Shown here: one piece after another, positions 10,911-36,500 of the stretch | Position numbering within the stretch: position 1 is the first letter of the stretch | Layout of the letters: each line of letters opens with the position of its first letter | Assembly (NCBI RefSeq): GCF_021155765.1 | Contig: NC_060107.1 | Span: 478,501-542,500 of the forward strand | Direction of reading: 5' to 3' | DNA: 64,000 nt | Source of the DNA: Diprion similis | Taxonomy: Eukaryota > Arthropoda > Insecta > Hymenoptera > Diprionidae | The notes under the pieces: model-generated | What the model saw: the letters and a program-made list of their open reading frames with translations, nothing else | Told to the model about the DNA's origin: nothing | The model's database searches: none | Made by a program: the position numbers and the translations under genes

Positions 10911-11692
10911 GCCGTTTCAAATTCGTTTCGCGTTTCGTTTCGATTCCAATTTTTCGCACGACCTTCGGTCGTTGGAAGTATGCCTAGATTCTTAACACCA
11001 CCGGAACTTGGAACGGAACTACCGACACAGAACTGATAGCAGCGTAGAACCGCCCGAACGATAAAACCCTGACGACCATAAAGACCGCCAAGGAGGATAA
11101 CGGGATTTTCTGAAACGAGCAGACCTCTTGAGGCTACGACTAACTATATGGTGGTGCAAGAGTTGCCTATATTTAGGTGCATTCACGTTTTCAACTCTGA
11201 AGTTAGTAACGTTATCGTAACGAAAGATTGCAAGGAAATAACTATTTTCTTAATTTTACAATATTAGATGCGTTCCGAAATTAGCTCTCGGTGCTGGCAA
11301 CGATCTTTTATCTCTCTTGCGCTGCCGAGTTTGTGACTAGCTTTGTCTCTGTCCTAGGGATTTTATTGCGCTGCTAGATAGTTTCGGAACGCACTCAAAA
11401 TTTCAAGGCACTAGATTTCGAAATATGAGTGTGTTTTGTTTTATTACCTTTTACTGAATAACAGATAATTCTAAAATCGTGGTAAATAACGGTTTTTTCT
11501 CAGCATGAATCGTTACGGTAACGTTACTAACTTCAACATCATTCATCCACCGACTTATTCCCACCACTCTACGGACATAAATTCGTGCATGCGTGTGAAA
11601 GGTTGGAGGTTATGAAATAGAAACATAAACAATCGACCTGTCATTTGGAGCACAGTCTTAAGATTGGATAAATTACGACTTGCGATTGAAAA
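10911..11692. promoter_or_regulatory. Divergent promoter interval (BTB gene / SANT gene)
   Basis: The BTB gene reads leftward from 10910 and the SANT-like gene rightward from 11693, so this 782-base interval must contain both 5' ends. It is interrupted by a MITE (11269-11393). The string CGTAACG(T/A) near 11210-11225 recurs in inverted form near 11515-11530 (GTTACGGTAACGTTAC), which could be a shared protein-binding site. No TATA box is evident on either side. Confidence 0.5.
11269..11393 (+). mobile_element. 125-bp MITE, copy 2, in a divergent promoter
   Basis: It starts TGCGTTCCGAAATTAG and ends TAGTTTCGGAACGCA, with inverted termini of about 15 bases. Its reverse complement aligns along its whole length with the element at 3153-3277, including the core CCCTAGGACAGAGACA. 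The length is exactly the same. Flanks show no convincing target duplication. It has no coding capacity. Confidence 0.78.
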
Positions 11693-12506
11693 ATGAGTGA
11701 AAAACGCGCACGCCAACCGATAGTTCGTTACGTAGGATACGAGGGGAATAACGAGTGGACTAATGATGAGAAAATCCTCTTATTGAAGGGTTTAAAGAAA
11801 TACGGCCATAAAGATGTTCCGAGTATAGCTAAATTGGTGCCAAGCAAATCCCCGATCGCAGTGAAAACGATGATTCTCAACACAATGATGGCTGCACGTC
11901 GTTCTACCAAACCAGGGAGAAAACCGCCTATAAATATGTGGCTGGAACGAACGTCGCTTGACGATACAAACTCGCTGATTCCGCAGGCCTTGAAATTCAT
12001 ATCATTGTTCGAGAGGCATCCTGCTGCTGAAAATTGCGGCGGCTGTGATCTCAGGTAAGCAGACAAGCTTACACCATCGGAGCATTCTTAGACCAATTTT
12101 GATTTAGTTCTTTATTCAGAGCTGCCTATGACTTCGTTTCTCGTATGACACGCAACCAACCTACTGCCGAGCTGTCAACAAATACTAGAAGAATTATTTT
12201 TAAAGCTATTTCCAAGACTGTGAGCAAAATGAGATTGAGCAGTCCAGAGAGCCTATTCCAGTCTATCAATAATGTAACAAAAACAGCGTCGCAAAAGGAT
12301 TACACACGCCATACCGTAAGCCATTTGAGTAATATTCAGTTGTTTGAAACCTCATATCACAGAATTGACCAGGATCTGATCCGCATTTGATTACGACACA
12401 TGTTATTTTCACTTTTCAGAAAACACAATCTAACATCGGACCTCACAAAGTGCTACAGGAGTTGAACAAATTCATGGTACCAACTGAGCAGCTTCGCATG
12501 TCTTGA
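11693..12506 (+). CDS. SANT/Myb-like domain protein, unrecognised
   Basis: Three exons, 11693-12054, 12120-12315 and 12420-12506, join in phase across GT/AG borders to give 214 residues. If exon 2 is not spliced at 12315 (ACC|GTAAGC) the frame runs on to a stop at 12388-12390, so an intron-retaining form of different C terminus is possible. Residues about 19-68 look like a SANT/Myb helix-turn-helix: NEWTNDEKILLLKGLKKYGH, then VPSIAKLVPSKSPIAVK, with the first tryptophan and spaced hydrophobics in place. The rest is basic and lacks a family I recognise; the spliced C terminus is HKVLQELNKFMVPTEQLRMS. A nuclear, chromatin or transcription role is a guess from the SANT motif. I chose the ATG at 11693 because it is followed by a basic N-terminus directly preceding the domain and there is an in-frame block upstream. 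Confidence 0.72.
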
Positions 12507-13608: not shown

Positions 13609-15857
13609 TTAATCTTTCAATATATTCCATGCATCTTCTTCTAGTTTCGAATTCCAATCTGCGGGCTTATTATTGTCTTCTTCAAAGTCGATTAAAGATT
13701 TCTCTTTGCTATTTGCTTTTTTTGATGCCCGAGGCACTGGCTTTGACCGATCATCCCTGGTGGATTCATTTGATAATTTTGGATTAGTGCTACTTCCCCA
13801 GGAGTCCCAGTCCCGACTAGAAAGCTTAGTCCCTGAAGAACTGCTCCTGAAGAAATTATTTTGCATGTAATATAGAAGTAACAGTGGCTTAGATTTGTCA
13901 CTTAAGAATTTACAAACCAATAATGTCTACTCACTTCATCGTATTTCCAGCAACTAACGATGATTTTTCGGTTGAATATGAACTGCTGGAATAACTGTTT
14001 TGTTGAGTATTTGACGTCTGGTACTGATCATTTGAATCAAACTGTTGATGCTGTTCTGACGAATTTGTTCCACTGATATCTCCCCATCCTCGACGCCCTA
14101 AATCACTGACCTAAACAAATTGAAGTAAAGTAGAAGTGATTGGATGCGTTCGTAGCATTGATCTGAATAAATTATTACAGCTGTAATATTCTTCACAGTT
14201 AAAATAACAAACAAAACTGTAAGCCTTCAAAGGGCGAACATTGTTTCAGCATTGTTGGAAAGACGTCAGGGAAATGAAATAAACTCAGATTTGAATTTCG
14301 TGAATAAAAATTCAGAATAAAGTGTTGAATGTTTGGCAACTTGATTAATTTCCGTTTCTACCTTTGCGGCAAGAGTGTTAACTTGTGCTCCTACATCCTC
14401 CAAAATAGTACCGTCGCGAACCTAGTGAAGTAAACATAAAATCAAACAAACCAAAGTAGTAAACTTAAAGTATCTTCCGGGTAAAAAAATCACAATTATA
14501 AAATAATCAAAATGTTGAGAAGAAAGAATCGAATAAAATGCATAAATTATAATCAGGTGTTTTTATCAAATAAAAAGGAAATGTGGAGTACCTTTTGAGA
14601 AGCCATTCCACCAATCTTAATTGCGTTTTCTGTTGCCTTGGTTGCGATCTTTGCTGCTGAAGATGACATTATCGACCAACCCTGGAAACAAAAGATACGC
14701 TTTCTGATTGTATAAGAGTGAAAGATTAAAAATCAGGTTTTAGAATAGTTCTGCAGAGCTTAAAATAATATCTTACGCTGGCAAGGGATGAGACAGCAGT
14801 ATCAAAAAATTCTTGGGAAGAGCTTCGTGGTGGGGCATCCATTTGGTAACCAAAGCCTCCATACTTTCCTCCTTGGTTTGGCGGTAAGTTTCTGCAAGTG
14901 TGATTTGAAATATTTTGAAAACTTGCGGGTTGAAATATAATTCCCAACAGAACTTATGATTGTTCTTCGTAAAACTGTTTCTTGAATTCATAATTTAGTA
15001 TAGGAAGTACTTGTAAGGTAGTACTGAAATACCATATACTCACTCGGGTCTAGATGCATTTTCATCCTGTTTCCTGGCAAAAAACGATTCAGTTTGAGTT
15101 TTAAAGCTAGCTGTGTTAAAGTTCTGATACGAACTGGAATCTTCACTCTGATATGAGTTTTGCTCGTATCTACTATTATTGTCTTGATACGTTGAACTCC
15201 TTGAAGTCTTGACACCGGAAGAACTTGGGGTCCACGTTTCTCCACGCGCCAATGTTGCTATCTGAATACGTCAGTTTATGATAATTAAGTATGAGAGAAA
15301 TTATTCAATAAAAAAATACTGTCTATGCAAATACAAATTCTAATAGCTGATTAAGTTATAATTTGAATATTTGCATTAAGCCAGTATTTTTTAAATACTA
15401 AAAGATGAAAATTTCATTACCTTGTCTCTGTAGAGAGCTGCAGCATTAGTGTTGTATCGTTGCTGTATAGACATGGAATCATCCCAGTCAGGTTGAGCCT
15501 CGAAGAATTCACGAGCCTTTCTGTTTCCACCAACTTTCATTTTCTCAAGTTCCGAGTCTTTCCATTTGTCCATAGAAACGGAACGCACAAAGGATAAGTG
15601 CACACCAAGGCCTCGGTGCTTGCCGGAACACTCGAGGCAGATCCATATTCCATACGTAACGGAAACCCACTGAGGATTGTGGGCTCCACACTCGAAGCAT
15701 TTCTGTTGTAAGGATAAAATAAACGTTATGATAATAAAGAAATTACCAGCGTCAATGACATGAGGTGTGACATACGTCTGTTGAGGTGAAACCTTACACT
15801 ATTTTCATCGCGGGGTTTTAATTCACCAAGTATTCGTCGTGTTCTCGGGCTCGCCAT
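13609..15857 (-). CDS. ArfGAP1: ADP-ribosylation factor GTPase-activating protein 1
   Basis: Eight exons: 15798-15857, 15421-15702, 15044-15261, 14777-14891, 14592-14681, 14362-14421, 13935-14110 and 13609-13846. All phases agree, giving 412 residues (vertebrate ArfGAP1 is about the same). It starts [20 protein letters not shown]. The ArfGAP zinc finger is CX2CX16CX2C at C22, C25, C42 and C45; the catalytic arginine finger is R50 in [15 protein letters not shown]. Residues about 213-245 ([11 protein letters not shown], then [16 protein letters not shown]) form an ALPS-type amphipathic helix rich in Ser, Thr and Ala that senses curved membrane. The C terminus has the tryptophan motifs DWDSWG and EDAWNILKD, which in this family contact coatomer/clathrin adaptors. 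The protein stimulates GTP hydrolysis on Arf1 at the Golgi and drives COPI uncoating. The small exons 256-275 and 226-255 are in-frame cassettes and could be skipped. Confidence 0.95.
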
Positions 15858-16734: not shown

Positions 16735-17100
16735 AAGTTGAAAAGTTCTTGGCTCCAAAATTTGCGAAAGAAAAAAGTTGAATTTCCGATGCTTTTAGTC
16801 GGCGAAAAATTTCTGGATTTTGGAAAGTGCTGGGATCAATTCTTTGAGGCACTATTCCGACGGAATTTTGCGAGAAAAATCGACTGAGCGCAGTCCCAAT
16901 ACGCTGCGAGCAACGGATCACAAGTTACAGCAAAAAAACCGAAGATTTTCATCGCCATTTCTCTGCTGTTGGTCCGATGGTCTTTTTCATGTGTTTTCTG
17001 AGTTCCTAGTGGTCCAATTACTCTAGAAAGGGTCATACTAATCGATTCCGAGTCGAAAAATTTTCGGCTCCCAAAATCAGGAAAAAACTAAGGCTAACCT
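16735..17100 (+). repeat. Decayed satellite monomer(s), left edge
   Basis: From about 16796 the sequence is a recognisable but mutated copy of the 312-bp satellite: GGCACTATTCCGACG, then CAATACGCTGCGAGCAACG, TCTCTGCTGTTGGTCC and CTCTAGAAAGGGTCATAC are kept with substitutions and small indels between. The preceding bases from about 16735 match the GGCTCC/AAAACTAAGG part of the previous monomer more weakly. It breaks off in GGCTAACC where the LINE fragment begins. Confidence 0.85.
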
Positions 17101-17835
17101 TAGGTGGCTGTTTGCCACCACAAAGATACCAGACATACGCCAGGCATACATGAAAAACGCGCTAGTGCGTCTTAAACGAAATCCAGAAGAAATAGAACAA
17201 AGAAAGCACACCCACGAACATGACACCAGAGCCAGGACACGAGAAAACCTCACACTGTCAAAAACTAAAACAACAATTGGGCACAGACAAGAAGAAGTAA
17301 TTATAAACAAGCTGTATAATGAAATTCCATTAGAAATAAAGCAAAAACGTATACAGGGTTTCAAAAAAAGTATTGGTACTTGGATCTTACAGCAGGGAAG
17401 AATGTACTACAATATACTGACTAACACCTAGAGAACGAGTGAATGAAAAGACTCGATAAAAATGTAGAAGTACTCTAGAGATTTCTAAATGTTTTTTTTT
17501 GTTACACGTGTAAGCAAATTAATGAGTATCAATAACGAATTAGGTATAAATTAGGAAATAAGTATAATGTGATGATTGAATAACAAGTAGAAATAATTAA
17601 TCTGCGTAATATAGTAAATTATCAGGTGCGGATGAGGAAGACTCAAATGCAAACACACATTCACGCAAATAAATTGTAATTTAGGAAATTAAGTGACAAG
17701 TTGTCACTATGTAAAAAAAAGCGACTGCAGCCAGACAAGCATGATAAGATGCTCAGGCTTGAAGAACTGAGAATTATGTGTAAACACAAAGAAAAAATGA
17801 TGTCAATAAATCTGAATCTAAATCTGAATCTGAAT
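17101..17835 (+). mobile_element. LINE-type retrotransposon 3' fragment inserted in satellite
   Basis: Satellite sequence is interrupted exactly at GGCTAACC and resumes at CTAACCCCTTTGG, so about 730 bases were inserted, with CTAACC as a possible 6-bp target duplication. An open frame from 17102 to 17431 ends in a segment typical of the C terminus of CR1/Jockey-like reverse transcriptases: TRARTRENLTLSKTKTT, then INKLYNEIPLEIKQK and FKKSIGTWIL. The fragment then has about 380 bases of non-coding 3' sequence and terminates in a short (AATCTG)n tail, about 17811-17835, as many LINEs do. Everything 5' of this is missing, as expected for 5'-truncated integration. The clade is uncertain. Confidence 0.68.
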
Positions 17836-17838
17836 CTA
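17811..17838 (+). repeat. (AATCTG)n microsatellite tail
   Basis: About four to five imperfect copies of a 6-base unit, AATCTG/AATCTA, form the 3' end of the LINE fragment and abut the resuming satellite. It probably arose at integration rather than as an independent microsatellite. Confidence 0.6.
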
Positions 17839-17949
17839 ACCCCTTTGGATTTTCGGCCGAAATTTCGACGAGTTCGGAAAGTGCTGCGATTATTTTTGAA
17901 AGGCACTATTCCGCCGTAATTTTGCGAGAGGAATCGATTAAGCGCAGTC

Positions 17950-20154
17950 CCAATACGCTGCGAGGTACGCCTGAAAAGTTACAGGCGGAAAACTGCTTAT
18001 TTTAGTGCTCATTTCTCTGCTGTTGGTCCTACGCTCTTTTGCATGTGTTTTTTGAGTTCCTGGGGGTCGATTTACTCTAGAAAGGGTCATACAAATCGAT
18101 TCCGAAACGAGAAATTTTTGGCTCCGAAAATAAGGAAAAAACTAAGGCTAACCCCTTTGGATTTTTGGACAAAATTTCGACAAGTTTGAAAAGTGCTGCG
18201 ATTATTTTTTTCAGGCACTATTCCGACGTAATTTCGCGAGAGGAATCGATTAAGCGCAGTCTTAATACGCTGCGAGCAACGCCTAAGAAGTTATAGGCGA
18301 AAAACTGCTGATTTTTGTGGTCATATCTCTGCTGTTGGTTCTACGCTCTTTTGCATGTGTTTTTTGAGTTCCTGGGGGTCGATTTACTCTAGAAAGGGTC
18401 ATACAAATCGATTCCGGAACGAGAAATTTTCGGCTCTCAAAATGAGGAAAAAACTAAGGCTAACCCCTTTGGATTTTTGGCCAGAATTTCGACGAGTTTG
18501 GAAAGTGCTGCGATTATTTTTTTCAGACACTATTCCGACGTAATTTTGCGAGAGGAATCGATTAAGCGCCGTCCCAATACGCTGCGAGCAACGCCTGAAA
18601 AGTTACAGGCGGAAAACTGCTGATTTTTGTGCTCATTTCTCTGCTGTTGGTCCTACGCTCTTTTGCATGTGTTTTTTGAGTTCCTGGGGGTCGATTTACT
18701 CTGGAAAGGGTCATACAAATCGATTCCGAAACGAGAAATTTTCGGCTCTGAAAATGAGGAAAAAAATAAGGCTAACCCCTTTGGATTTTTGGCCAAAATT
18801 TCGACGAGTTCGAAAAGTGCTGCGATTATTTTTGAAAGGCACTATTCCGACGTAATTTTGCGAGAGGAATCGATTAAGCGCAGTCCCAATACGCTGCGAG
18901 CAACGCCTGAAAAGTTACAGGCGGAAAACTGCTTATTTTAGTGCTCATTTCTCTGCTGTTGGTCCTACGCTCTTTTGCATGTGTTTTTTGAGTTCCTGGG
19001 GGTCGATTTACTCTAGAAAGGGTCATACAAATCGATTCCGAAACGAGAAATTTTTGGCTCCGAAAATGAGGAAAAAACTAAGGCTAACCCCTTTGGATTT
19101 TTGGTCAAAATTTCGACAAGTTTGAAAAGTGCTGCGATTATTTTTTTCAGGCACTATTCCGACGTAATTTCGCGAGAGGAATCGATTAAGCGCAGTCTTA
19201 ATACGCTGCGAGCAACGCCTAAGAAGTTATAGGCGAAAAACTGCTGATTTTTGTGGTCATATCTCTGCTGTTGGTTCTACGCTCTTTTGCATGTGTTTTT
19301 TGAGTTCCTGGGGGTCGATTTACTCGAGAAAGGGTCATACAAATCGATTCCGGAACGAGAAATTTTTGGCTCTCAAAATGAGGAAAAAACTAAGGCTAAC
19401 CCCTTTGGATTTTTGGCCAGAATTTCGACGAGTTTGGAAAGTGCTGCGATTATTTTTTTCAGACACTATTCCGACGTAATTTTGCGAGAGGAATCGATTA
19501 AGCGCAGTCCCAATACGCTGCGAGCAACGCCTGAAAAGTTACAGGCGGAAAACTGCTGATTTTTGTGCTCATTTCTCTGCTGTTGGTCCTACGCTGTTTT
19601 GCATGTGTTTTTTGAGTTCCTGGGGGTCGATTTACTCTGGGAAGGGTCATACAAATCGATTCCGAAACGAGAAATTTTCGGCTCTGAAAATGAGGAAAAA
19701 ACTAAGGCTAACCCCTTTGGATTTTTGGCCAAAATTTCGACGAGTTTGAAAAAGGCTGCGATTATTTTTCTCAGGCACTATTCCGACGTAATTTTGCGAG
19801 GGGAATCGATTAAGCGCAGTCCCAATACGCTGCGAGCAACGCCTGAGAAGTTACAGGCGGAAAACTGCTGATTTTTGTGCTCATTTCTCTGCTGTTGGTC
19901 CTATGCTCTTTTGCATGTGTTTTTTGAGTTCCTGGGGGTCGATTTACTCTAGAAAGGGTCATACAAATCGATTCCGAAACGAGAAATTTTTGGCTCCGAA
20001 AATGAGGAAAAAACTAAGGCTAACCCCTTTGGATTTTTGGTCAAAATTTCGACAAGTTTGAAAAGTGCTGCGATTATTTTTTTCAGGCACTATTCCGACG
20101 TAATTTCGCGAGAGGAATCGATTAGGCGCAGTCTTAATACGCTGCGAGCAACGC
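17950..20154 (+). repeat. Satellite higher-order repeat, 3-mer block
   Basis: Monomers follow a three-type order with a period of 936 bases: one with CTTATTTTAGTGCTC, one with GTGGTCATATCTC, one with TTTTGTGCTCATTTC. Two full cycles are seen (for example matched positions 18355 and 19291, 18627 and 19563), then one extra monomer with TCCTATGCTC before the next block. Confidence 0.8.
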
Positions 20155-22964
20155 CTAAGAAGTTACAGGCGAAAAACTGCTGATTTTTGTAGTCATATCT
20201 CTGCTGTTGGTTCTACGCTCTTTTGCATGTGTTTTTTGAGTTCCTGGGGGTCGATTTACTCTAGAAAGGGTCATACAAATCGATTCCGAAACGAGAAATT
20301 TTCGACTCTCAAAATGAGGAAAAAAACTAAGGCTAACCCCTTTGGATTTTTGGCCAGAATTTCGACGAGTTTGAAAAGTGCTGCGATTATTTTTTTCAGG
20401 CACTATTCCGCCGTAATTTTGCGAGAGGAATCGATTGGGCGCAGTCCCAATACGCTGCGAGCAACGCCTGAGAAGTTACAGGCGGAAAACTGCTGATTTT
20501 TGTGCTCATTTCTCTGCTGTTGGTCCTACGCTCTCTTGCATGTGTTTTTTGAGTTCCTGGGGGTCGATTTACTCTAGAAAGGGTCATACAAATCGATTCC
20601 GAAACGAGAAATTTTCGGCTCTGAAAATGAGGAAAAAACTAAGGCTAACCCCTTTGGATTTTTGGCCAAAATTTCGACGAGTTTGGAAAGTGCTGCGATT
20701 ATTTTTCTCAGGCACTATTCCGACGTAATTTTGCGAGAGGAATCGATTAGGCGCAGTCTTAATACGCTGCGAGCAACGCCTAAGAAGTTACAGGCGGAAA
20801 ACTGCTGATTTTTGTGCTCATTTCTCTGCTGTTGGTCCTACGCTCTTTTGCATGTGTTTTTTGAGTTCCTGGGGGTCGATTTACTCTGGTAAGGGTCATA
20901 CAAATCGATTCCGAAACGAGAAATTTTCGGCTCTGAAAATGAGGAAAAAACTAAGGCTAACCCCTTTGGATTTTTGGCCAAAATCTCGACGAGTTTGAAA
21001 AGTGCTGCAATTATTTTTCTCAGGCACTATTCCGACGTAATTTTGCGAGAGGAATCGATTAAGCGCAGTCCCAATACGCTGCGAGCAACGCCTGAGAAGT
21101 TACAGGCGGAAAACTGCTGATTTTTGTGCTCATTTCTCTGCTGTTGGTCCTACGCTCTTTTGCATGTGTTTTTTGAGTTCCTGGGGGTCGATTTACTCTA
21201 GAAAGGGTCATACAAATCGATTCCGAAACGAGAAATTTTTGGCTCCGAAAATGAGGAAAAAACTAAGGCTAACCCCTTTGGATTTTTGGTCAAAATTTCG
21301 ACAAGTTTGAAAAGTGCTGCGATTATTTTTTTCAGGCACTATTCCGACGTAATTTCGCGAGAGGAATCGATTAGGCGCAGTCTTAATACGCTGCGAGCAA
21401 CGCCTAAGAAGTTACAGGCGAAAAACTGCTGATTTTTGTAGTCATATCTCTGCTGTTGGTTCAACGCTCTTTTGCATGTGTTTTTTGAGTTCCTGGGGGT
21501 CGATTTACTCTAGAAAGGGTCATACAAATCGATTCCGGAACGAGAAATTTTCGGCTCTCAAAATGAGGAAAAAAACTAAGGCTAACCCCTTTGGATTTTT
21601 GGCCAGAATTTCGACGAGTTTGAAAAGTGCTGCGATTATTTTTTTCAGGCACTATTCCGCTGTAATTTTGCGAGAGGAATCGATTAGGCGCAGTCCCAAT
21701 ACGCTGCGAGCAACGCCTGAGAAGTTACAGGCGGAAAACTGCTGATTTTTGTGCTCATTTCTCTGCTGTTGGTCCTACGCTCTTTTGCATGTGTTTTTTG
21801 AGTTCCTGGGGGTCGATTTACTCTGGAAAGGGTCATACAAATCGATTCCGAAACGAGAAATTTTCGGCTCTGTGAATGAGGAAAAAACTAAGGCTAACCC
21901 CTTTGGATTTTTGGTCAAAATTTCGACAAGTTTGAAAAGTGCTGCGATTATTTTTTTCAGGCACTATTCCGACGTAATTTCGCGAGAGGAATCGATTAAG
22001 CGCAGTCTTAATACGCTGCGAGCAACGCCTAAGAAGTTATAGGCGAAAAACTGCTGATTTTTGTGGTCATATCTCTGCTGTTGGTTCTACGCTCTTTTGC
22101 ATGTGTTTTTTGAGTTCCTGGGGGTCGATTTACTCTAGAAAGGGTCATACAAATCGATTCCGGAACGAGAAATTTTTGGCTCTCAAAATGAGGAAAAAAC
22201 TAAGGCTAACCCCTTTGGATTTTTGGCCAGAATTTCGACGAGTTTGGAAAGTGCTGCGATTATTTTTTTCAGACACTATTCCGACGTAATTTTGCGAGAG
22301 GAATCGATTAAGCGCAGTCCCAATACGCTGCGAGCAACGCCTGAAAAGTTACAGGCGGAAAACTGCTGATTTTTGTGCTCATTTCTCTGCTGTTGGTCCT
22401 ACGCTCTTTTGCATGTGTTTTTTGAGTTCCTGGGGGTCGATTTACTCTGGTAAGGGTCATACAAATCGATTCCGAAACGAGAAATTTTCGGCTCTGAAAA
22501 TGAGGAAAAAACTAAGGCTAACCCCTTTGGATTTTTGGCCAAAATTTCGACGAGTTTGAAAAAGGCTGCGATTATTTTTCTCAGGCACTATTCCGACGTA
22601 ATTTTGCGAGAGGAATCGATTAAGCGCAGTCCCAATACGCTGCGAGCAACGCCTGAGAAGTTACAGGCGGAAAACTGCTGATTTTTGTGCTCATTTCTCT
22701 GCTGTTGGTCCTACGCTCTTTTGCATGTGTTTTTTGAGTTCCTGGGAGTCGATTTACTCTAGAAAGGGTCATACAAATCGATTCCGAAACGAGAAATTTT
22801 TGGCTCCGAAAATGAGGAAAAAACTAAGGCTAACCCCTTTGGATTTTTGGTCAAAATTTCGACAAGTTTGAAAAGTGCTGCGATTATTTTTTTCAGGCAC
22901 TATTCCGACGTAATTTCGCGAGAGGAATCGATTAGGCGCAGTCTTAATACGCTGCGAGCAACGC
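20155..22964 (+). repeat. Satellite higher-order repeat, 9-mer copy 1 (2,810 bp)
   Basis: Nine monomers in a fixed order by diagnostic variants: first with TAGTCATATC, second with CTCTCTTGC, two plain, fifth with TAGTCATATC plus GTTCAACGC, sixth plain, seventh with GTGGTCATATC, eighth plain, ninth with CTGGGAGTCG. The same ordered series recurs at 25151-27960. Confidence 0.82.
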
Positions 22965-25150
22965 CTAAGAAGTTACAGGCGAAAAACTGCTGATTTTTGT
23001 AGTCATATCTCTGCTGTTGGTTCTACGCTCTTTTGCATGTGTTTTTTGAGTTCCTGGGGGTCGATTTACTCTAGAAAGGGTCATACAAATCGATTCCGGA
23101 ACGAGAAATTTTCGACTCTCAAAATGAGGAAAAAAACTAAGGCTAACCCCTTTGGATTTTTGGCCAGAATTTCGACGAGTTTGAAAAGTGCTGCGATTAT
23201 TTTTTTCAGGCACTATTCCGCCGTAATTTTGCGAGAGGAATCGATTGGGCGCAGTCCCAATACGCTGCGAGCAACGCCTGAGAAGTTACAGGCGGAAAAC
23301 TGCTGATTTTTGTGCTCATTTCTCTGCTGTTGGTCCTACGCTCTCTTGCATGTGTTTTTTGAGTTCCTGGGGGTCGATTTACTCTAGAAAGGGTCATACA
23401 AATCGATTCCGAAACGAGAAATTTTCGGCTCTGAAAATGAGGAAAAAACTAAGGCTAACCCCTTTGGATTTTTGGCCAAAATTTCGACGAGTTTGAAAAG
23501 TGCTGCGATTATTTTTCTCAGGCACTATTCCGACGTAATTTTGCGAGAGGAATCGATTAGGCGCAGTCTTAATACGCTGCGAGCAACGCCTAAGAAGTTA
23601 CAGGCGGAAAACTGCTGATTTTTGTGCTCATTTCTCTGCTGTTGGTCCTACGCTCTTTTGCATGTGTTTTTTGAGTTCCTGGGGGTCGATTTACTCTGGT
23701 AAGGGTCATACAAATCGATTCCGAAACGAGAAATTTTCGGCTCTGAAAATGAGGAAAAAACTAAGGCTAACCCCTTTGGATTTTTGGCCAAAATTTCGAC
23801 GAGTTTGAAAAGTGCTGCAATTATTTTTCTCAGGCACTATTCCGACGTAATTTTGCGAGAGGAATCGATTAAGCGCAGTCCCAATACGCTGCGAGCAACG
23901 CCTGAGAAGTTACAGGCGGAAAACTGCTGATTTTTGTGCTCATTTCTCTGCTGTTGGTCCTACGCTCTTTTGCATGTGTTTTTTGAGTTCCTGGGGGTCG
24001 ATTTACTCTAGAAAGGGTCATACAAATCGATTCCGAAACGAGAAATTTTTGGCTCCGAAAATGAGGAAAAAACTAAGGCTAACCCCTTTGGATTTTTGGT
24101 CAAAATTTCGACAAGTTTGAAAAGTGCTGCGATTATTTTTTTCAGGCACTATTCTGACGTAATTTCGCGAGAGGAATCGATTAGGCGCAGTCTTAATACG
24201 CTGCGAGCAACGCCTAAGAAGTTACAGGCGAAAAACTGCTGATTTTTGTAGTCATATCTCTGCTGTTGGTTCAACGCTCTTTTGCATGTGTTTTTTGAGT
24301 TCCTGGGGGTCGATTTACTCTGGTAAGGGTCATACAAATCGATTCCGAAACGAGAAATTTTTGGCTCCGAAAATGAGGAAAAAACTAAGGCTAACCCCTT
24401 TGGATTTTTGGTCAAAATTTCGACAAGTTTGAAAAGTGCTGCGATTATTTTTTTCAGGCACTATTCCGACGTAATTTCGCGAGAGGAATCGATTAGGCGC
24501 AGTCTTAATACGCTGCGAGCAACGCCTAAGAAGTTACAGGCGAAAAACTGCTGATTTTTGTAGTCATATCTCTGCTGTTGGTTCAACGCTCTTTTGCATG
24601 TGTTTTTTGAGTTCCTGGGGGTCGATTTACTCTAGAAAGGGTCATACAAATCGATTCCGGAACGAGAAATTTTCGGCTCTCAAAATGAGGAAAAAAACTA
24701 AGGCTAACCCCTTTGGATTTTTGGCCAGAATTTCGACGAGTTTGAAAAGTGCTGCGATTATTTTTTTCAGGCACTATTCCGCTGTAATTTTGCGAGAGGA
24801 ATCGATTAGGCGCAGTCCCAATACGCTGCGAGCAACGCCTGAGAAGTTACAGGCGGAAAACTGCTGATTTTTGTGCTCATTTCTCTGCTGTTGGTCCTAC
24901 GCTCTTTTGCATGTGTTTTTTGAGTTCCTGGGGGTCGATTTACTCTGGAAAGGGTCATTCAAATCGATTCCGAAACGAGAAATTTTCGGCTCTGAAAATG
25001 AGGAAAAAACTAAGGCTAACCCCTTTGGATTTTTGGTCAAAATTTCGACAAGTTTGAAAAGTGCTGCGATTATTTTTTTCAGGCACTATTCCGACGTAAT
25101 TTCGCGAGAGGAATCGATTAGGCGCAGTCTTAATACGCTGCGAGCAACGC
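22965..25150 (+). repeat. Satellite higher-order repeat, rearranged 7-mer (2,186 bp)
   Basis: It begins like the 9-mer for five monomers, then the GTTCAACGC monomer is repeated (near 24270 and 24582), one plain monomer follows, and the GTGGTCATATC, plain and CTGGGAGTCG monomers are absent. The extra monomer is a hybrid of neighbouring types, as expected from unequal exchange. Confidence 0.8.
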
Positions 25151-27960
25151 CTAAGAAGTTACAGGCGAAAAACTGCTGATTTTTGTAGTCATATCTCTGC
25201 TGTTGGTTCTACGCTCTTTTGCATGTGTTTTTTGAGTTCCTGGGGGTCGATTTACTCTAGAAAGGGTCATACAAATCGATTCCGGAACGAGAAATGTTCG
25301 ACTCTCAAAATGAGGAAAAAAACTAAGGCTAACCCCTTTGGATTTTTGGCCAGAATTTCGACGAGTTTGAAAAGTGCTGCGATTATTTTTTTCAGGCACT
25401 ATTCCGCCGTGATTTTGCGAGAGGAATCGATTGGGCGCAGTCCCAATACGCTGCGAGCAACGCCTGAGAAGTTACAGGCGGAAAACTGCTGATTTTTGTG
25501 CTCATTTCTCTGCTGTTGGTCCTACGCTCTCTTGCAAGTTTTTTTTGAGTTCCTGGGGGTCGATTTACTCTAGAAAGGGTCATACAAATCGATTCCGAAA
25601 CGAGAAATTTTCGGCTCTGAAAATGAGGAAAAAACTAAGGCTAACCCCTTTGGATTTTTGGCCAAAATTTCGACGAGTTTGAAAAGTGCTGCGATTATTT
25701 TTCTCAGGCACTATTCCGACGTAATTTTGCGAGAGGAATCGATTAGGCGCAGTCTTAATACGCTGCGAGCAACGCCTAAGAAGTTACAGGCGGAAAACTG
25801 CTGATTTTTGTGCTCATTTCTCTGCTGTTGGTCCTACGCTCTTTTGCATGTGTTTTTTGAGTTCCTGGGGGTCGATTTACTCTGGTAAGGGTCATACAAA
25901 TCGATTCCGAAACGAGAAATTTTCGGCTCTGAAAATGAGGAAAAAACTAAGGCTAACCCCTTTGGATTTTTGGCCAAAATTTCGACGAGTTTGAAAAGTG
26001 CTGCAATTATTTTTCTCAGGCACTATTCCGACGTAATTTTGCGAGAGGAATCGATTAAGCGCAGTCCCAATACGCTGCGAGCAACGCCTGAGAAGTTACA
26101 GGCGGAAAACTGCTGATTTTTGTGCTTATTTCTCTGCTGTTGGTCCTACGCTCTTTTCCATGTGTTTTTTGAGTTCCTGGGGGTCGATTTACTCTAGAAA
26201 GGGTCATACAAATCGATTCCGAAACGAGACATTTTTGGCTCCGAAAATGAGGAAAAAACTAAGGCTAACCCCTTTGGATTTTTGGTCAAAATTTCGACAA
26301 GTTTGAAAAGTGCTGCGATTATTTTTTTCAGGCACTATTCCGACGTAATTTCGCGAGAGGAATCGATTAGGCGCAGTCCTAATACGCTGCGAGCAACGCC
26401 TAAGAAGTTACAGGCGAAAAACTGCTGATTTTTGTAGTCATATCTCTGCTGTTGGTTTAACGCTCTTTTGCATGTGTTTTTTGAGTTCCTGGGGGTCGAT
26501 TTACTCTAGAAAGGGTCATACAAATCGATTCCGGAACGAGAAATTTTCGGCTCTCAAAATGAGGAAAAAAACTAAGGCTAACCCCTTTGGATTTTTGGCC
26601 AAAATTTCGACGAGTTTGAAAAGTGCTGCGATTATTTTTTTCAGGCACTATTCCGCTGTAATTTTGCAAGAGGAATCGATTAGGCGCAGTCCCAATACGC
26701 TGCGAGCAACGCCTGAGAAGTTACAGGCGGAAAACTGCTGATTTTTGTGCTCATTTCTCTGCTGTTGGTCCTACGCTCTTTTGCATGTGTTTTTTGAGTT
26801 CCTGGGGGTCGATTTACTCTGGAAAGGGTCATACAAATCGATTCCGAAACGAGAAATTTTCGGCTCTGAAAATGAGGAAAAAACTAAGGCTAACCCCTTT
26901 GGATTTTTGGTCAAAATTTCGACAAGTTTGAAAAGTGCTGCGATTATTTTTTTCAGGCACTATTCCGACGTAATTTCGCGAGAGGAATCGATTAAGCGCA
27001 GTCTTAATACGCTGCGAGCAACGCCTAAGAAGTTATAGGCGAAAAACTGCTGATTTTTGTGGTCATATCTCTGCTGTTGGTTCTACGCTCTTTTGCATGT
27101 GTTTTTTGAGTTCCTGGGGGTCGATTTACTCTAGAAAGGGTCATACAAATCGATTCCGGAACGAGAAATTTTTGGCTCTCAAAATGAGGAAAAAACTAAG
27201 GCTAACCCCTTTGGATTTTTGGCCAGAATTTCGACGAGTTTGGAAAGTGCTGCGATTATTTTTTTCAGACACTATTCCGACGTAATTTTGCGAGAGGAAT
27301 CGATTAAGCGCAGTCCCAATACGCTGCGAGCAACGCCTGAAAAGTTACAGGCGGAAAACTGCTGATTTTTGTGCTCATTTCTCTGCTGTTGGTCCTACGC
27401 TCTTTTGCATGTGTTTTTTGAGTTCCTGGGGGTCGATTTACTCTGGTTAGGGTCATACAAATCGATTTCGAAACGAGAAATTTTCGGCTCTGAAAATGAG
27501 GAAAAAACTAAGGCTAACCCCTTTGGATTTTTGGCCAAAATTTCGACGAGTTTGAAAAAGGCTGCGATTATTTTTCTCAGGCACTATTCCGACGTAATTT
27601 TGCGAGAGGAATCGATTAAGCGCAGTCCCAATACGCTGCGAGCAACGCCTGAGAAGTTACAGGCGGAAAACTGCTGATTTTTGTGCTCATTTCTCTGCTG
27701 TTGGTCCTACGCTCTTTTGCATGTGTTTTTTGAGTTCCTGGGAGTCGATTTACTCTAGAAAGGGTCATACAAATCGATTCCGAAACGAGAAATTTTTGGC
27801 TCCGAAAATGAGGAAAAAACTAAGGCTAACCCCTTTGGATTTTTGGTCAAAATTTCGACAAGTTTGAAAAGCGCTGCGATTATTTTTTTCAGGCACTATT
27901 CCGACGTAATTTCGCGAGAGGAATCGATTAGGCGCAGTCTTAATACGCTGCGAGCAACGC
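25151..27960 (+). repeat. Satellite higher-order repeat, 9-mer copy 2 (2,810 bp)
   Basis: It matches the 20155-22964 block monomer by monomer, including the CTCTCTTGC variant in the second and CTGGGAGTCG in the ninth. Private changes (CTCTTGCAAG near 25535, TGCTTATTTC near 26125, GTTTAACGC near 26456) show it is not a recent assembly duplicate. Confidence 0.82.
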
Positions 27961-30900
27961 CTAAGAAGTTACAGGCGAAAAACTGCTGATTTTTGTAGTC
28001 ATATCTCTGCTGTTGGTTCTACGCTCTTTTGCATGTGTTTTTTGAGTTCCTGGGGGTCGATTTACTCTAGAAAGGGTCATACAAATCGATTTCGGAACGA
28101 GAAATTTTCGACTCTCAAAATGAGGAAAAAAACTAAGGCTAACCCCTTTGGATTTTTGGCCAGAATTTCGACGAGCTTGAAAAGTGCTGCGATTATTTTT
28201 TTCAGGCACTATTCCGCCGTAATTTTGCGAGAGGAATCGATTGGGCGCAGTCCCAATACGCTGCGAGCAACGCCTAAGAAGTTATAGGCGAAAAACTGCT
28301 GATTTTTGTGGTCATATCTCTGCTGTTGGTTCTACGCTCTTTTGCATGTGTTTTTTGAGTTCCTGGGGGTCGATTTACTCTAGAAAGGGTCATACAAATC
28401 GATTCCGGAACGAGAAATTTTTGGCTCTCAAAATGAGGAAAAAACTAAGGCTAACCTCTTTGGATTTTTGGCCAGAATTTCGACGAGTTTGGAAAGTGCT
28501 GCGATTATTTTTTTCAGACACTATTCCGACGTAATTTTGCGAGAGGAATCGATTAAGCGCAGTCCCAATACGCTGCGAGCAACGCCTGAAAAGTTACAGG
28601 CGGAAAACTGCTGATTTTTGTGCTCATTTCTCTGCTGTTGGTCCTATGCTCTTTTGCATGTGTTTTTTGAGTTCCTGGGGGTCGATTTACTCTGGTAAGG
28701 GTCATACAAATCGATTCCGAAACGAGAAATTTTCGGCTCTGAAAATGAGGAAAAAACTAAGGCTAACCCCTTTGGATTTTTGGCCAAAATTTCGACGAGT
28801 TTGAAAAAGGCTGCGATTATTTTTCTCAGGCACTATTCCGACGTAATTTTGCGAGAGGAATCGATTGGGCGCAGTCCCAATACGCTGCGAGCAACGCCTG
28901 AGAAGTTACAGGCGGAAAACTGCTGATTTTTGTGCTCATTTCTCTGCTGTTGGTCCTACGCTCTTTTGCATGTGTTTTTTGAGTTCCTGGGGGTCGATTT
29001 ACTCCAGTAAGGGTCATACAAATCGATTCCGAAACGAGAAATTTTTGGCTCCGAAAATGAGGAAAAAACTAAGGCTAACCCCTTTGGATTTTTGGTCAAA
29101 ATTTCGACAAGTTTGAAAAGTGCTGCGATTATTTTTTTCAGGCACTATTCCGACGTAATTTCGCGAGAGGAATCGATTAGGCGCAGTCTTAATACGCTGC
29201 GAGCAACGCCTAAGAAGTTACAGGCGAAAAACTGCTGATTTTTGTAGTCATATCTCTGCTGTTGGTTCTACGCTCTTTTGCATGTGTTTTTTGAGTTCCT
29301 GGGGGTCGATTTACTCTAGAAAGGGTCATACAAATCGATTTCGGAACGAGAAATTTTCGACTCTCAAAATGAGGAAAAAAACTAAGGCTAACCCCTTTGG
29401 ATTTTTGGCCAGAATTTCGACGAGCTTGAAAAGTGCTGCGATTATTTTTTTCAGGCACTATTCCGCCGTAATTTTGCGAGAGGAATCGATTGGGCGCAGT
29501 CCCAATACGCTGCGAGCAACGCCTAAGAAGTTATAGGCGAAAAACTGCTGATTTTTGTGGTCATATCTCTGCTGTTGGTTCTACGCTCTTTTGCATGTGT
29601 TTTTTGAGTTCCTGGGGGTCGATTTACTCTAGAAAGGGTCATACAAATCGATTCCGGAACGAGAAATTTTTGGCTCTCAAAATGAGGAAAAAACTAAGGC
29701 TAACCCCTTTGGATTTTTGGCCAGAATTCCGACGAGTTTGGAAAGTGCTGCGATTATTTTTTTCAGACACTATTCCGACGTAATTTTGCGAGAGGAATCG
29801 ATTAAGCGCAGTCCCAATACGCTGCGAGCAACGCCTGAAAAGTTACAGGCGGAAAACTGCTGATTTTTGTGCTCATTTCTCTGCTGTTGGTCCTACGCTC
29901 TTTTGCATGTGTTTTTTGAGTTCCTGGGGGTCGATTTACTCTGGTAAGGGTCATACAAATCGATTCCGAAACGAGAAATTTTCGGCTCTGAAAATGAGGA
30001 AAAAACTAAGGCTAACCCCTTTGGATTTTTTGCCAAAATTTCGACGAGTTTGAAAAAGGCTGCGATTATTTTTCTCAGGCACTATTCCGACGTAATTTTG
30101 CGAGAGGAATCGATTAAGCGCAGTCCCAATACGCTGCGAGCAACGCCTGAGAAGTTACAGGCGGAAAACTGCTGATTTTTGTGCTCATTTCTCTGCTGTT
30201 GGTCCTACGCTCTTTTGCATGTGTTTTTTGAGTTCCTGGGGGTCGATTTACTCTAGAAAGGGTCATACAAATCGATTCCGAAACGAGAAATTTTTGGCTC
30301 CGAAAATGAGGAAAAAACTAAGGCTAACCCCTTTGGATTTTTGGTCAAAATTTCGACAAGTTTGAAAAGTGCTGCGATTATTTTTTTCAGGCACTATTCC
30401 GACGTAATTTCGCGAGAGGAATCGATTAGGCGCAGTCTTAATACGCTGCGAGCAACGCCTAAGAAGTTACAGGCGAAAAACTGCTGATTTTTGTAGTCAT
30501 ATCTCTGCTGTTGGTTCTACGCTCTTTTGCATGTGTTTTTTGAGTTCCTGGGGGTCGATTTACTCTAGAAAGGGTCATACAAATCGATTCCGGAACGAGA
30601 AATTTTCGACTCTCAAAATGAGGAAAAAAACTAAGGCTAACCCTTTTGGATTTTTGGCCAGAATTTCGACGAGCTTGAAAAGTGCTGCGATTATTTTTTT
30701 CAGGCACTATTCCGCCGTAATTTTGCGAGAGGAATCGATTGGGCGCAGTCCCAATACGCTGCGAGCAACGCCTGAGAAGTTACAGGCGGAAAACTGCTGA
30801 TTTTTGTGCTCATTTCTCTGCTGTTGGTCCTACGCTCTCTTGCATGTGTTTTTTGAGTTCCTGGGGGTCGATTTACTCTAGAAAGGGTCATACAAATCGA

Positions 30901-31285
30901 TTCCGAAACGAGAAATTTTCGGCTCTGAAAATGAGGAAAAAACTAAGGCTAACCCCTTTGGATTTTTGGCCAAAATTTCGACGAGTTTGAAAAGTGCTGC
31001 GATTATTTTTCTCAGGCACTATTCCGACGTAATTTTGCGAGAGGAATCGATTAGGCGCAGTCTTAATACGCTGCGAGCAACGCCTAAGAAGTTACAGGCG
31101 GAAAACTGCTGATTTTTGTGCTCATTTTTCTGCTGTTGGTCCTACGCTCTTTTGCATGTGTTTTTTGAGTTCCTGGGGGTCGATTTACTCTGGTAAGGGT
31201 CATACAAATCGATTCCGAAACGAGAAATTTTCGGCTCTGAAAATGAGAAAAAAAATAAGGCTAACCCCTTTGGATTTTTGGTCAA
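27961..31285 (+). repeat. Satellite higher-order repeat, 4-mer block
   Basis: Two copies of a 1,249-base, four-monomer unit (27961-29209 and 29210-30458) share variants such as ACAAATCGATTTCGG and GACGAGCTTG. A third copy starts at 30459 but takes the CTCTCTTGC second monomer of the 9-mer instead, and the array then runs into decayed monomers. The 4-mer looks like a contracted 9-mer (first monomer joined to its seventh to ninth). Confidence 0.8.
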
Positions 31286-31830
31286 AATTTTGACGATTCT
31301 GAAAAGCCCTACGAATAATACCTCGAGGCACTTGTCTGTCGTTATTTCGCAAGAGAAATCGATCAAATGCAGCTCCAATACGCTGCGAGTCACCCATGTA
31401 AAAATACAGCTTAAAAAACGCTTTTTCTGATGTGTTATTTCAGTCCCTTGGGATCTAATCAGTCCAGAGAGGGTCACACTAATCGATTTCAAGACAAAAG
31501 ATATTTTATCCTGTAAAATTCAAGACTAGCCCCCTCGGGTACGTGGTGAAAATTCGAAAAGTTTGAAAAGTTCGAAACAACTCTCTGTCACACCATCTTC
31601 ACGTATTCCTACGACGCGAATTGATTGCTTGCAATTTGAATGCACTGCGAGCAAGCGGGTTACGAGTTACAGCAAGAAAAAACAAACGATAAAGATTTTT
31701 AGCATTTCCCATCGCATGCCATAGATGTCATTTGAGGCTTCTTCATCGTCCAATTAGTCCAAACAGCGTCTATTGAGTCGATTCTCAGAGGAAATAGTTC
31801 TTCCTTCAAATATTCGAAAAAATTGAACTG
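31286..31830 (+). repeat. Decayed satellite monomers, right edge
   Basis: After GGTCAAAATTTTGACG the satellite continues as two increasingly mutated monomers. The first keeps CCAATACGCTGCGAG, GAGAGGGTCACACTAATCGAT; the second keeps only blocks such as CACTGCGAGCAAGCGGG, GAGTTACAGCAAG and CCAATTAGTCCAAACAG. Similarity fades by about 31830. Confidence 0.8.
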
Positions 31831-33545: not shown

Positions 33546-36500
33546 CTGCGAGGGAGGAAGAATTTTATGAAAACAGGTGATATTTTTTGAAAACACTACG
33601 TGATTTTTTTACATAAAAATTGACATCAACAGGCGCTTTACTAAGCAATGGCAAATAGTGTGAAGATAATACATACCAGAAGCAGGTAAGACTTTGAATG
33701 GTTCTTCAGACTCCAATGGCTCGCTGTGACCCACTTCGTTTCTGGCAAAGATTCTGATCAGATACTCATGGTTCTCCTGAAGGTCTTTGATGGTGAGCTT
33801 CTGGATGTCTGCGTTAACTCGTCCAACCTCCATCCACATTGTCTTCTTTACATCTCTAATAGCGATTTTATAACCCTCCAACGGTGCGCCGCCGTCGGAC
33901 TCTGGTCTGCCCCATTCGATGACTATCGTGTTTCCAGCAATTTGCCGGATTTCGAGTGGCGCCGTTGGAGGTGACGGGACAGCTGAAACAGATCATAGCA
34001 TCAGAATACCCGAAAAATAGTATCCCATAACGCAATGTTTCCAGTATTTCCCGGATGGTCCTAATATCGTGACCACTCACTTGCATGTGTTTTCAGAGTA
34101 ACGGCTTCCGATGTTGCCGGTGTACTCAAGCCTATGCTATTTTCAGCAAATACTCTGAACATGAATTCACTCTCTTTGAGATTCTCGATGCAATGTTGAT
34201 GCGTTGTAGCGTCAAGCGTGATTATTTTGCTCCACTTCGCACCCTTACCACTCATTGTTCTCTTCTCGACCACGTAGCCTGCCGAGGAACAAATTCATAG
34301 ATGAACACGTCGTTCCGCAATAAGAGAACCTGATTCTTTTAGTCATCGTTTGAACTCATCATTTACTCTACGTGGTCAAGATCTTACCTGTAAGCTCTGT
34401 TCCTCCTGTGCTGGCTGGTGGCGCCCATGTCAGGGTTGCACTTCGACTAGTTATACCAGTCACTTGTAGGTTCAGCGGGCATGAAGGTGGTGCTGAAAAT
34501 GATGAGATATTTAATTGGTTTATTATTGGTTTAATATATAAAGAAAGAATACAGACAAAGAGCTTAGCTTCGATGGGAGTGTGTTAATATGAGCCAAAGC
34601 ACATAATTAATTATTTAATGTTCAGTATTCAAAGTAATATGAATATAGAACGTCAAATGATACTTGTTCAGGGAAAGGAATTCAATAAAATGATACTATT
34701 CCATGAACTTACTTTTACTTGTTACAACTTTAGTCGTTGGAAATATGCCAAGTAAAGCATACATTGTACTTTCAGTAAGCTTGGTTATTTCTACGTAGAA
34801 AGGAAAGCGAAAAATTAGTAAGCGAAGCGTTTTGTTAAAAAGCATTGTCAAGATAAGAATAATGCGCAGTATCAAGTAGAGCCAGTAATTTTCAATTCTT
34901 CGATGGACTTACTGATGCGTTTACCAGCTGTGATGGGCTCTTCTGGTAAATATGGTGGTCCGCTACCTATACTGTTACGTGCGGTTATTCTAAAGTTGTA
35001 GGAAGTGTCTGTCTTGACATCTGACACGATAATATTTGTCATCTCTCCCTGTGTGCTGCCGATCTTTAAATAGATTTTTTTTTATAATTTGGCTCCCATG
35101 TGCAAATGCTTGGATGATAATGACACTTTGGAATAAAAAGATCACTAAACGTTTCATTTAAGAATATTTACCTTCTGCCATGCTTTCTTAGATACTTCCT
35201 TCATCTCGACAATGTACTCTATGATCGGCGAACCTCCGTCATTCTCTGGTGGCTGCCACTTTATGGTGAAGGAAGTTTTCGTCATTCCCGAGACGTCGAG
35301 AGGTCCTCGGGGTGGTCCTGGTTTTTCTATAGCAATTATATTCAAAAAATTGTAATTTAATCTCATCTTTGAAATGAAATGATAACATGGATATATACAT
35401 ATTCGTTTTTACTTTTTCTACTCACCGAATGAAGGTTTAATCGCGACTGGTTCCGATTCCAGTGGTTCTGACGATCCGACAGGGTTTTTAGCGACAACTC
35501 GGAACAAGTATTCCGAATCTTGCTGCAATTTTTGTATGCAATAAGACTCAGCGTCCTTTTCGACGTCAGATACCTTCATCCACACCATTTTTTCCGGCTC
35601 ACACTTTTCGATCGTGTATTTACTAAGCTCGAGACCTCCGTCATCTGCAGGTGGTTTCCACTCTATGGTGATTTGGTCTTGTCTGATGTCTCGCATTACT
35701 ATGGGACCACGTGGTTTGCTTGGCTTGTCTATTGGATAAATAGTTACACAGAATGGAAATTAAAATGAATTTCTCAGCGTTATATAATTTGAATGAATAA
35801 AAAAAAGTAAAGTACCTATGACTCGGAGGTACATTTCGACGGACGTGCTACCCGCTTCATTGGATGCTGTAACTGTGTAAGTTCCTGTATCTTCTCGTAC
35901 TACTGAATATATCGTGATCGTTGAAGTTGTTTCTTCGTTGTAAACTGAAACTTGTTTCTCTGTGATCGTCTTTCCATTTTTGATCCACGAAATTTGCGGC
36001 TGCGGGAATCCTGCAGCTTCGACATTTATTTTCCACTGGCTTGTTACTCGCAGTTGTTGAGTCGCCAAGGTTTCATCGAAATTCAGGGTAGGAGGCTCCT
36101 GTATTTTAAGTTCACACGTTGTCTCGGCCGTTCCAGCATCGTTTTCAGCTTTAACGGTAAAGGTAGCGCCCGAAGTTTCTGTTGTTTCTTTAATGGTATA
36201 CTTTGCCACCCGATTTTCATACGTGATATTGGCATTCTTAAACGGATTTCCATTTTTCATCCTGTAATGAAAGTTATACAGTCGTCGTCGGTCTTCAAAT
36301 CAATACCGTAGAAGATATTCTGACCCAGTAAATTCAAGTACAGAAAATATGAAAAGCTTTAGTTACCATGTGATCTTAGGTGTTGGAATTCCACCGATTA
36401 CACAGGATAGAGATACGGTTTGCTTCAATCCAGTTGTAACGCTGTTCAGTGGCTCTAAAATTACTGGTGCTTCAGCTGCCACAGGCTTCGCGATCTTCAA

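Follow-up and report, generated by a model that had tools for sequence, protein, structure and literature searches.

A gene-flanked array of a dispersed satellite in Diprion similis, with probable recent block duplications and LINEs that appear specific for one satellite position

Results

The window analysed here is a stretch of 64,000 nucleotides of Diprion similis contig NC_060107.1 (positions 478,501 to 542,500), and its features are presented in Table 1. A core satellite array of 43 full head-to-tail monomers of 312 or 313 bp each lies between an ArfGAP1-like gene and an sls/titin-like gene, as the initial annotation had placed it. Tandem Repeats Finder gives a period of 312 and 43.1 copies at 17836-31306, and the monomer starts are spaced 312 or 313 bp apart throughout the core, with every join in register. 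The left edge of the core is a 5'-truncated LINE copy, which opens with the satellite CTAACC and closes in repeats of GAATCT/AAATCT; next comes CTAACCCC, part of the first core monomer. Decayed monomers flank the core on both sides; they and the LINE insertion had been missed in the initial annotation.

Table 1. Features of the satellite array and its surroundings, in window positions
Feature	Position	Strand	Basis
Open frame with ArfGap domain, ArfGAP1-like gene, left neighbour	15391..15798	-	PF01412, E=1.3e-33
Decayed monomer left of LINE	16800..17093	+	241 identities, 47 mismatches, 1 gap against consensus
5'-truncated LINE copy, left array boundary	17094..17835	+	Satellite junctions, family comparison
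Core satellite array, 43 monomers	17836..31260	+	Tandem Repeats Finder, monomer starts, clustering
Two 3-mer blocks, 936 bp each, 98.5% identical	17836-18771 / 18772-19707	+	Block comparison
9-mer block A, 2810 bp, m8-m16	20020..22829	+	99.36% identity to block B
7-mer block, 2186 bp, m17-m23	22830..25015	+	Clustering, block comparison
9-mer block B, 2810 bp, m24-m32	25016..27825	+	Block comparison
Two 4-mer blocks, 1249 bp each, m34-m37 / m38-m41, 99.28% identical	28139-29387 / 29388-30636	+	Block comparison
Decayed monomers, right edge of array	31261..31817	+	Comparison with monomer consensus
Open frame with fibronectin III domain, nearest exon of sls/titin-like gene, right neighbour	33609..33992	-	PF00041, E=1.8e-13

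The core monomers were assigned to classes by average-linkage clustering with a cut-off of 4 differences, giving the string ABCDBEFGHIJGKBEFGHIJLGKGHIJGKBEFGMENGMEFGHI. The longest copied run covers ten monomers, m8-m17 against m24-m33, with 20 differences, while the longest run was 6 in 2000 shuffles of the order and 5 in 500 further shuffles (this test excludes the last partial monomer and the decayed monomers at the edges). Copied multi-monomer blocks are thus present beyond chance, and the monomer order is non-random, with the block order as read from the assembly. This order had been proposed in the initial annotation, and all the blocks named there are present at the lengths given. The 7-mer is also related to the 9-mer as stated there: GHIJLGK beside GHIJGKBEF has one monomer gained and three lost. 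The further likeness to alpha-satellite higher-order repeats stands for the copied blocks, but no single unit is regularly repeated over the core, which consists of blocks of 3, 9, 7 and 4 monomers; the lag means across the core monomers show partial periods only.

Two other readings of the monomer were rejected. The halves of a supposed internal 156-bp dimer align at 37.0, compared with a shuffle mean of 32.4 and a maximum of 54, which gives no signal. A tandem coding protein is not seen either: the frames of 103-130 aa in the array arise because 312 is divisible by 3, and stop codons turn up repeatedly along it. The one monomer tested for folding gave z = -0.07, and an Rfam scan of the window gave 0 matches.

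The assembly searched comprises 269 Mb with 14 large contigs. It contains 42,220 pattern matches to the 312-bp satellite family, about 4.8% of the assembly, at a minimum of 65 places. Every one of the 14 large contigs has some of these places, and the window's contig has five. The family is thus not limited to centromeres; it forms many head-to-tail arrays outside one heterochromatic block, some reaching tens of kb, compared with 13 kb for the core. This agrees with the plainest option of the initial annotation, a dispersed array. Mapping of arrays by a CpG-decay variant identified 2 places only. Across 13 stretches, with the last partial and decayed edge monomers excluded, monomer divergence is 1.5-5.2% within arrays and 6.8-17.8% between them. 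The nearest neighbour of a monomer comes from the same stretch in 343 of 362 cases, and the remaining 19 come from two stretches of one array on contig C12. In sequence, every array is a group of its own, with monomers more alike within than between arrays, the pattern of concerted evolution. The block period varies from array to array, and order comparable to that of the window is found elsewhere at other periods. Block order is not a constant feature of the family, since 8 of 15 array stretches show it weakly or not at all (p>0.05). Carriage of the array inside a transposon was considered and rejected: when pieces of the flanks of 10 arrays were compared, the only match was between the arrays on C2 and at C6:18.5, which have a repeat of about 190 bp in common.

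The LINE copy of the window belongs to a family in which 17 of the 20 fetched copies have their 3' end at one position of the monomer, eight in 312-bp and nine in 304-bp arrays; the young copies do so without exception (12/12). Such independent copies at one target position are expected of a target-specific LINE. Three fetched copies (L066, L068, L083) lie outside satellite. The family is spread over many contigs, and ten truncated copies begin at nine points of the element; in the analysis of 5' junctions ten of the 20 loci were chosen for satellite upstream, the other ten having no 5' satellite junction in the sequence examined. Contigs with TTAGG ends are present in the assembly; telomere insertion was rejected, as all 32 LINE matches are at least 200 kb away from the contig ends.

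A sister family occupies the same satellite site, also with differing 5' ends. Its endonuclease, found at L045, is 46% identical to the window family's own, and its reverse-transcriptase DNA is 65-66% identical. Three of the four 5' ends examined are at the satellite site, and among matches on C1-C10 the junctions are at the expected distance in four of seven; a 99%-identical 5' end, at L086, is not in satellite. A third, unrelated-looking insert (L033:6690-7605) also uses the site. This insert has 41 other matches in the assembly.

The LINEs encode a reverse transcriptase, with an RVT_1 domain at L075, and an AP-type endonuclease, whose part sits in frames of 1035-1038 aa. At loci on C4, C5 and C6 the two matches occur together, separated by about 0.45-0.5 kb, so that both enzymes belong to one element, as in a target-specific LINE. 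When the sister family endonuclease was searched against structures, the 5 matches at E<=1 included neither TRAS1 nor R1. The repeat tail and the Baculo_FP ORF1 presumably place the LINEs in the CR1 group rather than R1.

Discussion

The array is best read as a dispersed satellite that lies between genes and has undergone recent in-register duplications of blocks. Very probably it is a non-centromeric part of an abundant, gene-dispersed family, with a locally homogenised core, blocks that are recent duplications and a left-edge LINE from site-specific families. Recombination between copies shifted by whole monomers, such as unequal exchange, would homogenise the core locally, and the apparent higher-order repeats may be recent block duplications not yet scrambled by later exchange. 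Similar patterns would also result from gene conversion or replication-based duplication.

A different view, close to one option of the initial annotation, is that the array is a centromere or a latent (neo)centromeric seed and that centromeric recombination has left its mark in the nested order. The core does contain near-identical nested blocks, and in human alpha-satellite the blocks of the higher-order repeats are said to resemble one another much more closely than the monomers do (PMC8122249). However, monomers of the core differ by only about 5%, against about 30% given in that source for alpha-satellite, and the core has neither long regular repetition of one unit nor evidence of a centromere location. 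It is also short and flanked by genes, its family is dispersed over all the large contigs, and the block periods are private to individual arrays. None of the 4 CENP-B-box-like matches in the window lies inside the array. A separate 279-bp satellite is more homogeneous, lies at several contig ends and shows mostly a 6-monomer higher order on one contig, although on C3 its position was not found among the matches listed; judged from such sequence features it is the better centromere candidate. A centromeric role of the array therefore seems highly improbable.

An artefact of assembly seems just as improbable a source of the block order. Assembly of tandem arrays is difficult and the order is the one read from the assembly, but the blocks differ from their copies at 9-20 positions, all joins are in register and other arrays have comparable order with other periods; some collapse of the array in the assembly is conceivable. 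The LINE copies are also very unlikely to have spread inside amplified satellite units instead of by repeated insertion at one site. Some copies do lie near one another within an array, two on C5 (1.805 and 1.812 Mb) and three on C11 near 8.94 Mb, and could have been amplified together, but the nine start points, the division between 312-bp and 304-bp arrays, the many contigs and the use of the site by two other kinds of insert all argue against this. Somewhat less remote, though still unlikely, is an effect of the array on neighbouring genes or a production of small RNAs, as proposed for Drosophila euchromatic satellites. The array is flanked by genes, siRNA from euchromatic 1.688 repeats is linked to dosage compensation (PMC7214746), and satellite transcription is described as frequent in Hymenoptera (PMC2220036); against this, the window has no Rfam match and the arrays are on every large contig, not on a single one.

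The preferred reading, a dispersed satellite, has parallels in Drosophila 1.688 on the X and in Tribolium TCAST1, in which arrays of medium-length monomers likewise lie among genes. For the 1.688 family, homogenisation on a local scale has reportedly been seen. The euchromatic 1.688 repeats are described as short, X-enriched arrays with 73% mean identity (PMC7214746), whereas the present family is on all 14 large contigs in arrays of up to tens of kb. Within the genus, the satellite subfamilies of the sawfly Diprion pini, said to have been reported by Rouleux-Bonnin et al. in 1996, are possibly related to the window's satellite.

From their junctions and domains, the LINEs look like recently active elements specific for one TTAGG-like site of the dispersed satellite. 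Their endonuclease would nick the lower strand at about GGGGTT^AG, and the freed 3' end could then prime reverse transcription on the LINE RNA tail. The satellite would thus offer the LINEs many copies of a landing site, a role that rDNA and telomeres play for other LINEs. TRAS1 of Bombyx, also a sequence-specific LINE with an AP-type endonuclease, cuts TTAGG repeats between T and A (PMC2868851), which resembles the GGTT^AG cut proposed here, but the target of the present LINEs is a satellite away from contig ends. YURE and Utopia, found at U2 snRNA genes and U2-derived satellite, share the insertion in satellite; their lineages have a restriction-like endonuclease, in contrast to the AP type here, and YURE insertion in the gene-derived U2_sat is called occasional (PMC4640811). 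Among the open-licence papers listed in literature searches, none described a LINE specific for a non-genic satellite. We regard as plausible, with about as much to be said for as against it, a wider interpretation from sequence: two recently active sister AP-endonuclease LINE families, probably of the CR1 group, may target a single position in the monomer of this abundant and dispersed satellite, where the site GGTTAGCC (one strand) resembles telomeric TTAGG. Such a telomere-like target inside satellite arrays would have become a safe haven across the genome for LINEs that fall outside the usual target-specific lineages.

The nested block order arose in a short gene-flanked array without sign of a centromere, and such order alone should therefore not be taken to indicate a centromere. 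With the LINEs, one can study how target specificity evolves when the target is a non-genic satellite: there are about 42,000 candidate sites, young and old insertions and two sister families, in arrays whose recombination can remove or retain the insertions.

Results and Discussion

Monomer order and surroundings of the array

According to Tandem Repeats Finder, the satellite in the window forms a single long array, with 43 full monomers (m1-m43) of 312 or 313 bp each. Pairwise differences between these monomers average 16.4 positions. Three runs recur nearly unchanged: m8-m17 and m24-m33 (10 monomers, 20 differences), m5-m11 and m14-m20 (7 monomers, 9 differences), and m31-m37 and m35-m41 (7 monomers, 19 differences). 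The longest run in 2000 shuffles of monomer order was at most 6, compared with the copied run of 10, in agreement with the non-random monomer mix proposed in the initial annotation. The block lengths reported there also hold, with identities of 98.5% for the 3-mers, 99.36% for the 9-mers and 99.28% for the 4-mers, as does the relation of the 7-mer (GHIJLGK, letters denoting monomer variant clusters) to the 9-mer (GHIJGKBEF).

The core is bordered by decayed units; by comparison, the first three core monomers score 370-388 bits. Decayed edges around a homogenised core are what recombination within the array would predict. The array had been placed between ArfGAP1 and sls. The ArfGap and fibronectin III domains are present on the left and right, respectively, and the frames fit these genes, whose names we infer. 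A long stretch of repetitive coding sequence lies beyond the fibronectin III frame.

Coordinates of the array, its neighbours and related repeats (bare positions, window; C, contigs of this assembly; L, individual genomic loci)
Feature	Location	Strand	Details
Open frame, Myb-like DNA-binding domain	11690-12058		Pfam E=5.2e-06
Frame with ArfGap domain	15391-15798	minus	left of array
Decayed satellite unit, left	16800-17093		245.9 bits
LINE copy	17094-17835		5'-truncated
Satellite array	17836-31306		full monomers, 17836-31260
Decayed satellite units, right	31261-31817		122.8 and 36.5 bits
Frame with fibronectin III domain	33609-33992	minus	right of array
Coding tandem repeats, sls/titin-like gene	42406-45279, 46564-48369, 48488-51056, 55366-64000		units of 123, 261, 375, 246 bp, all whole codons
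Sister-family matches with listed junction	C1:4.34, C2:16.72, C5:0.84, C8:15.21 Mb
Third insert	L033:6690-7605 (C8:8356690-8357605)		916 bp; Baculo_FP_2nd frame
Distant endonuclease matches, other LINEs	C2:107058-233443		clustered near C2 start; 23-28% identical; some in open frames of 950 and 974 aa
304-bp monomer subfamily of the satellite	L072, L073, L074, L077, L078, L079, L081, L082, L084
Different tandem repeat, ~190 bp	L031 (C2:9.595 Mb), L040-L041 (C6:18.5 Mb)		adjoins two satellite arrays
279-bp satellite	L048; C1:14.2356-14.2692 Mb; C2:3.5299-3.5648 Mb; C8:1-150 kb; C15		scattered matches in the C8 interval
GCGTCAAATTACGCCGG repeat	L022, L024, L027, L063		starts of C14, C16, C19; inside C19

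A dispersed satellite

The assembly comprises 269 Mb in 60 contigs, and the window corresponds to C3:478501-542500. TTAGG repeats occur at a number of contig ends, C3 having them at both. A 50-mer of the monomer gave 5362 matches at up to 3 mismatches, and a 23-mer around monomer position 1 gave 42,220 at up to 2 mismatches (reversed 23-mer as control, 0 matches). Taking about 308 bp per match, the satellite makes up approximately 4.8% of the assembly. It occupies at least 65 places, a rough lower bound in which some places are supported by one match, with 12 on C1 and 5 on C3 among the matches listed. All 14 large contigs (10.9-28.0 Mb, among 20 contigs sized) carry it.

Divergence was compared for 362 monomers in 13 stretches of 12 arrays, and is 1.5-5.2% within arrays versus 6.8-17.8% between arrays, the window array being the most heterogeneous (5.2%). 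The nearest neighbour lies in the same stretch for 343 monomers; the remaining 19 belong to two stretches of a single C12 array, 2.0% apart. When 15 stretches of 13 arrays were searched for copied runs (p uncorrected), the longest run had p<=0.006 in five (window, C8:8.36, C14:13.7, C8:19.9 and C4:21.81 Mb), p=0.020 and p=0.028 in two others (that of C2 is not fully contiguous), and p>0.05 in eight. The lags of the first five are 16, 8, 17, 10 and 15 monomers, and the mean distance per lag fell under all 300 shuffles for the window and C14 only. From the run statistics and the differing lags it follows that the block order is real, in several arrays though not in all, and private to each.

The initial annotation considered the nested blocks to be either a centromeric or neocentromeric seed or simply a dispersed array. 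The family's dispersal and its array-private block order make the centromeric reading unlikely, and presence on every large contig agrees with the other. The window array is best read as one of many scattered arrays of this satellite, in which blocks have recently been duplicated. A different, 279-bp satellite (15,312 pattern matches) is a better candidate for the centromeric satellite, as a lead rather than proof. C6, C8 and C12 begin with its unit, C8 also ends with it, and it is present in C15 and C17; 10 kb read on C15 consists of it (97% matches), and on C3 it was not found among the matches listed. On C1 a marked variant repeats across 33 kb, with 15 of 20 spacings of 1673-1674 bp, or six monomers, so that the higher order there is mostly a 6-monomer unit of 1674 bp. 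Inspection by eye showed another shared repeat (GCGTCAAATTACGCCGG) in unplaced contigs as well as at the ends of contigs.

LINEs at one satellite site

The LINE copy at the left edge of the array opens with CTAACC of the satellite, contains the terminal part of a LINE reading frame, and terminates in a tail of GAATCT and AAATCT repeats, beyond which comes CTAACCCC, part of the next monomer. It has 32 genome matches, of which 20 loci were examined. In 17 of these, the window copy included, the 3' end adjoins monomer position 1-2 (8 in 312-bp-spaced and 9 in 304-bp-spaced arrays); at L066, L068 and L083 it is not at the satellite site. Among the other 12 matches, six end at a listed junction 24-mer, two more extend to the 3' end outside the on-target count, and four are without the 3' end. 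Twelve copies (L071-L082), all on target, are 99-100% alike across about 700 bp. The window copy is an older one, with 84-94% identity to the remaining copies. The ten truncated copies have nine start points; the one identical pair is split between C3 and C7, where the satellite types differ, and two pairs starting just 1 and 6 bp apart each consist of one old and one young copy. An open 607-aa frame runs to the 5' limit of the stretch read in five of eight copies read in frame, and contains a reverse transcriptase domain (L075, E=7e-41).

The insert at L045:8142 likewise starts right after CTAACC. Baculo_FP domains are present in its ORF1, and it also codes for an AP-type endonuclease. Compared with the endonuclease of the window's family, found at C4, C5 and C6 in frames of 1035-1038 aa, this one shows 46% identity, and the aligned parts of the reverse-transcriptase DNA are 65-66% identical; L045 therefore represents a sister family. 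Three of the four sister-family 5' ends examined (L045, L085, L087) are at the satellite site, and that of L086 is not. An AAA/CTAACCCC junction (slash, boundary) occurs approximately 1490-1510 bp beyond four of seven sister-family reverse-transcriptase matches on C1-C10. A third insert uses the same site as the LINEs, being preceded by AAGG/CTAACC and ending in ...TTC/AACCCC. It has 42 genome matches, several of which have a common 5' start and cluster on C2, C11 and C12.

The insertion position, tails, truncations and domains are the demonstrated part of the mechanism. In the proposed remainder, lower-strand nicking by the LINE endonuclease near GGTT^AG would free a 3' end that primes reverse transcription of the LINE RNA, the 5' truncations would arise where copying stops early, and AACC or CTAACC would become duplicated. 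How the third insert ends speaks for GGGGTT^AG as the position of the lower-strand nick. PMC2868851 reports cleavage by the TRAS1 endonuclease at the T-A junction within TTAGG repeats, a site notably like the putative GGTT^AG. However, none of the 32 matches of the window's LINE is near a contig end. The five hits of the sister-family endonuclease include no TRAS1 or R1 structure. By the account of PMC4640811, the majority of reported target-specific families fall within the early-branching, Tx1 and R1 lineages. Of the two outcomes of this analysis, the LINE is the more surprising: at its left edge the array carries a copy from a family with specificity for one satellite site.
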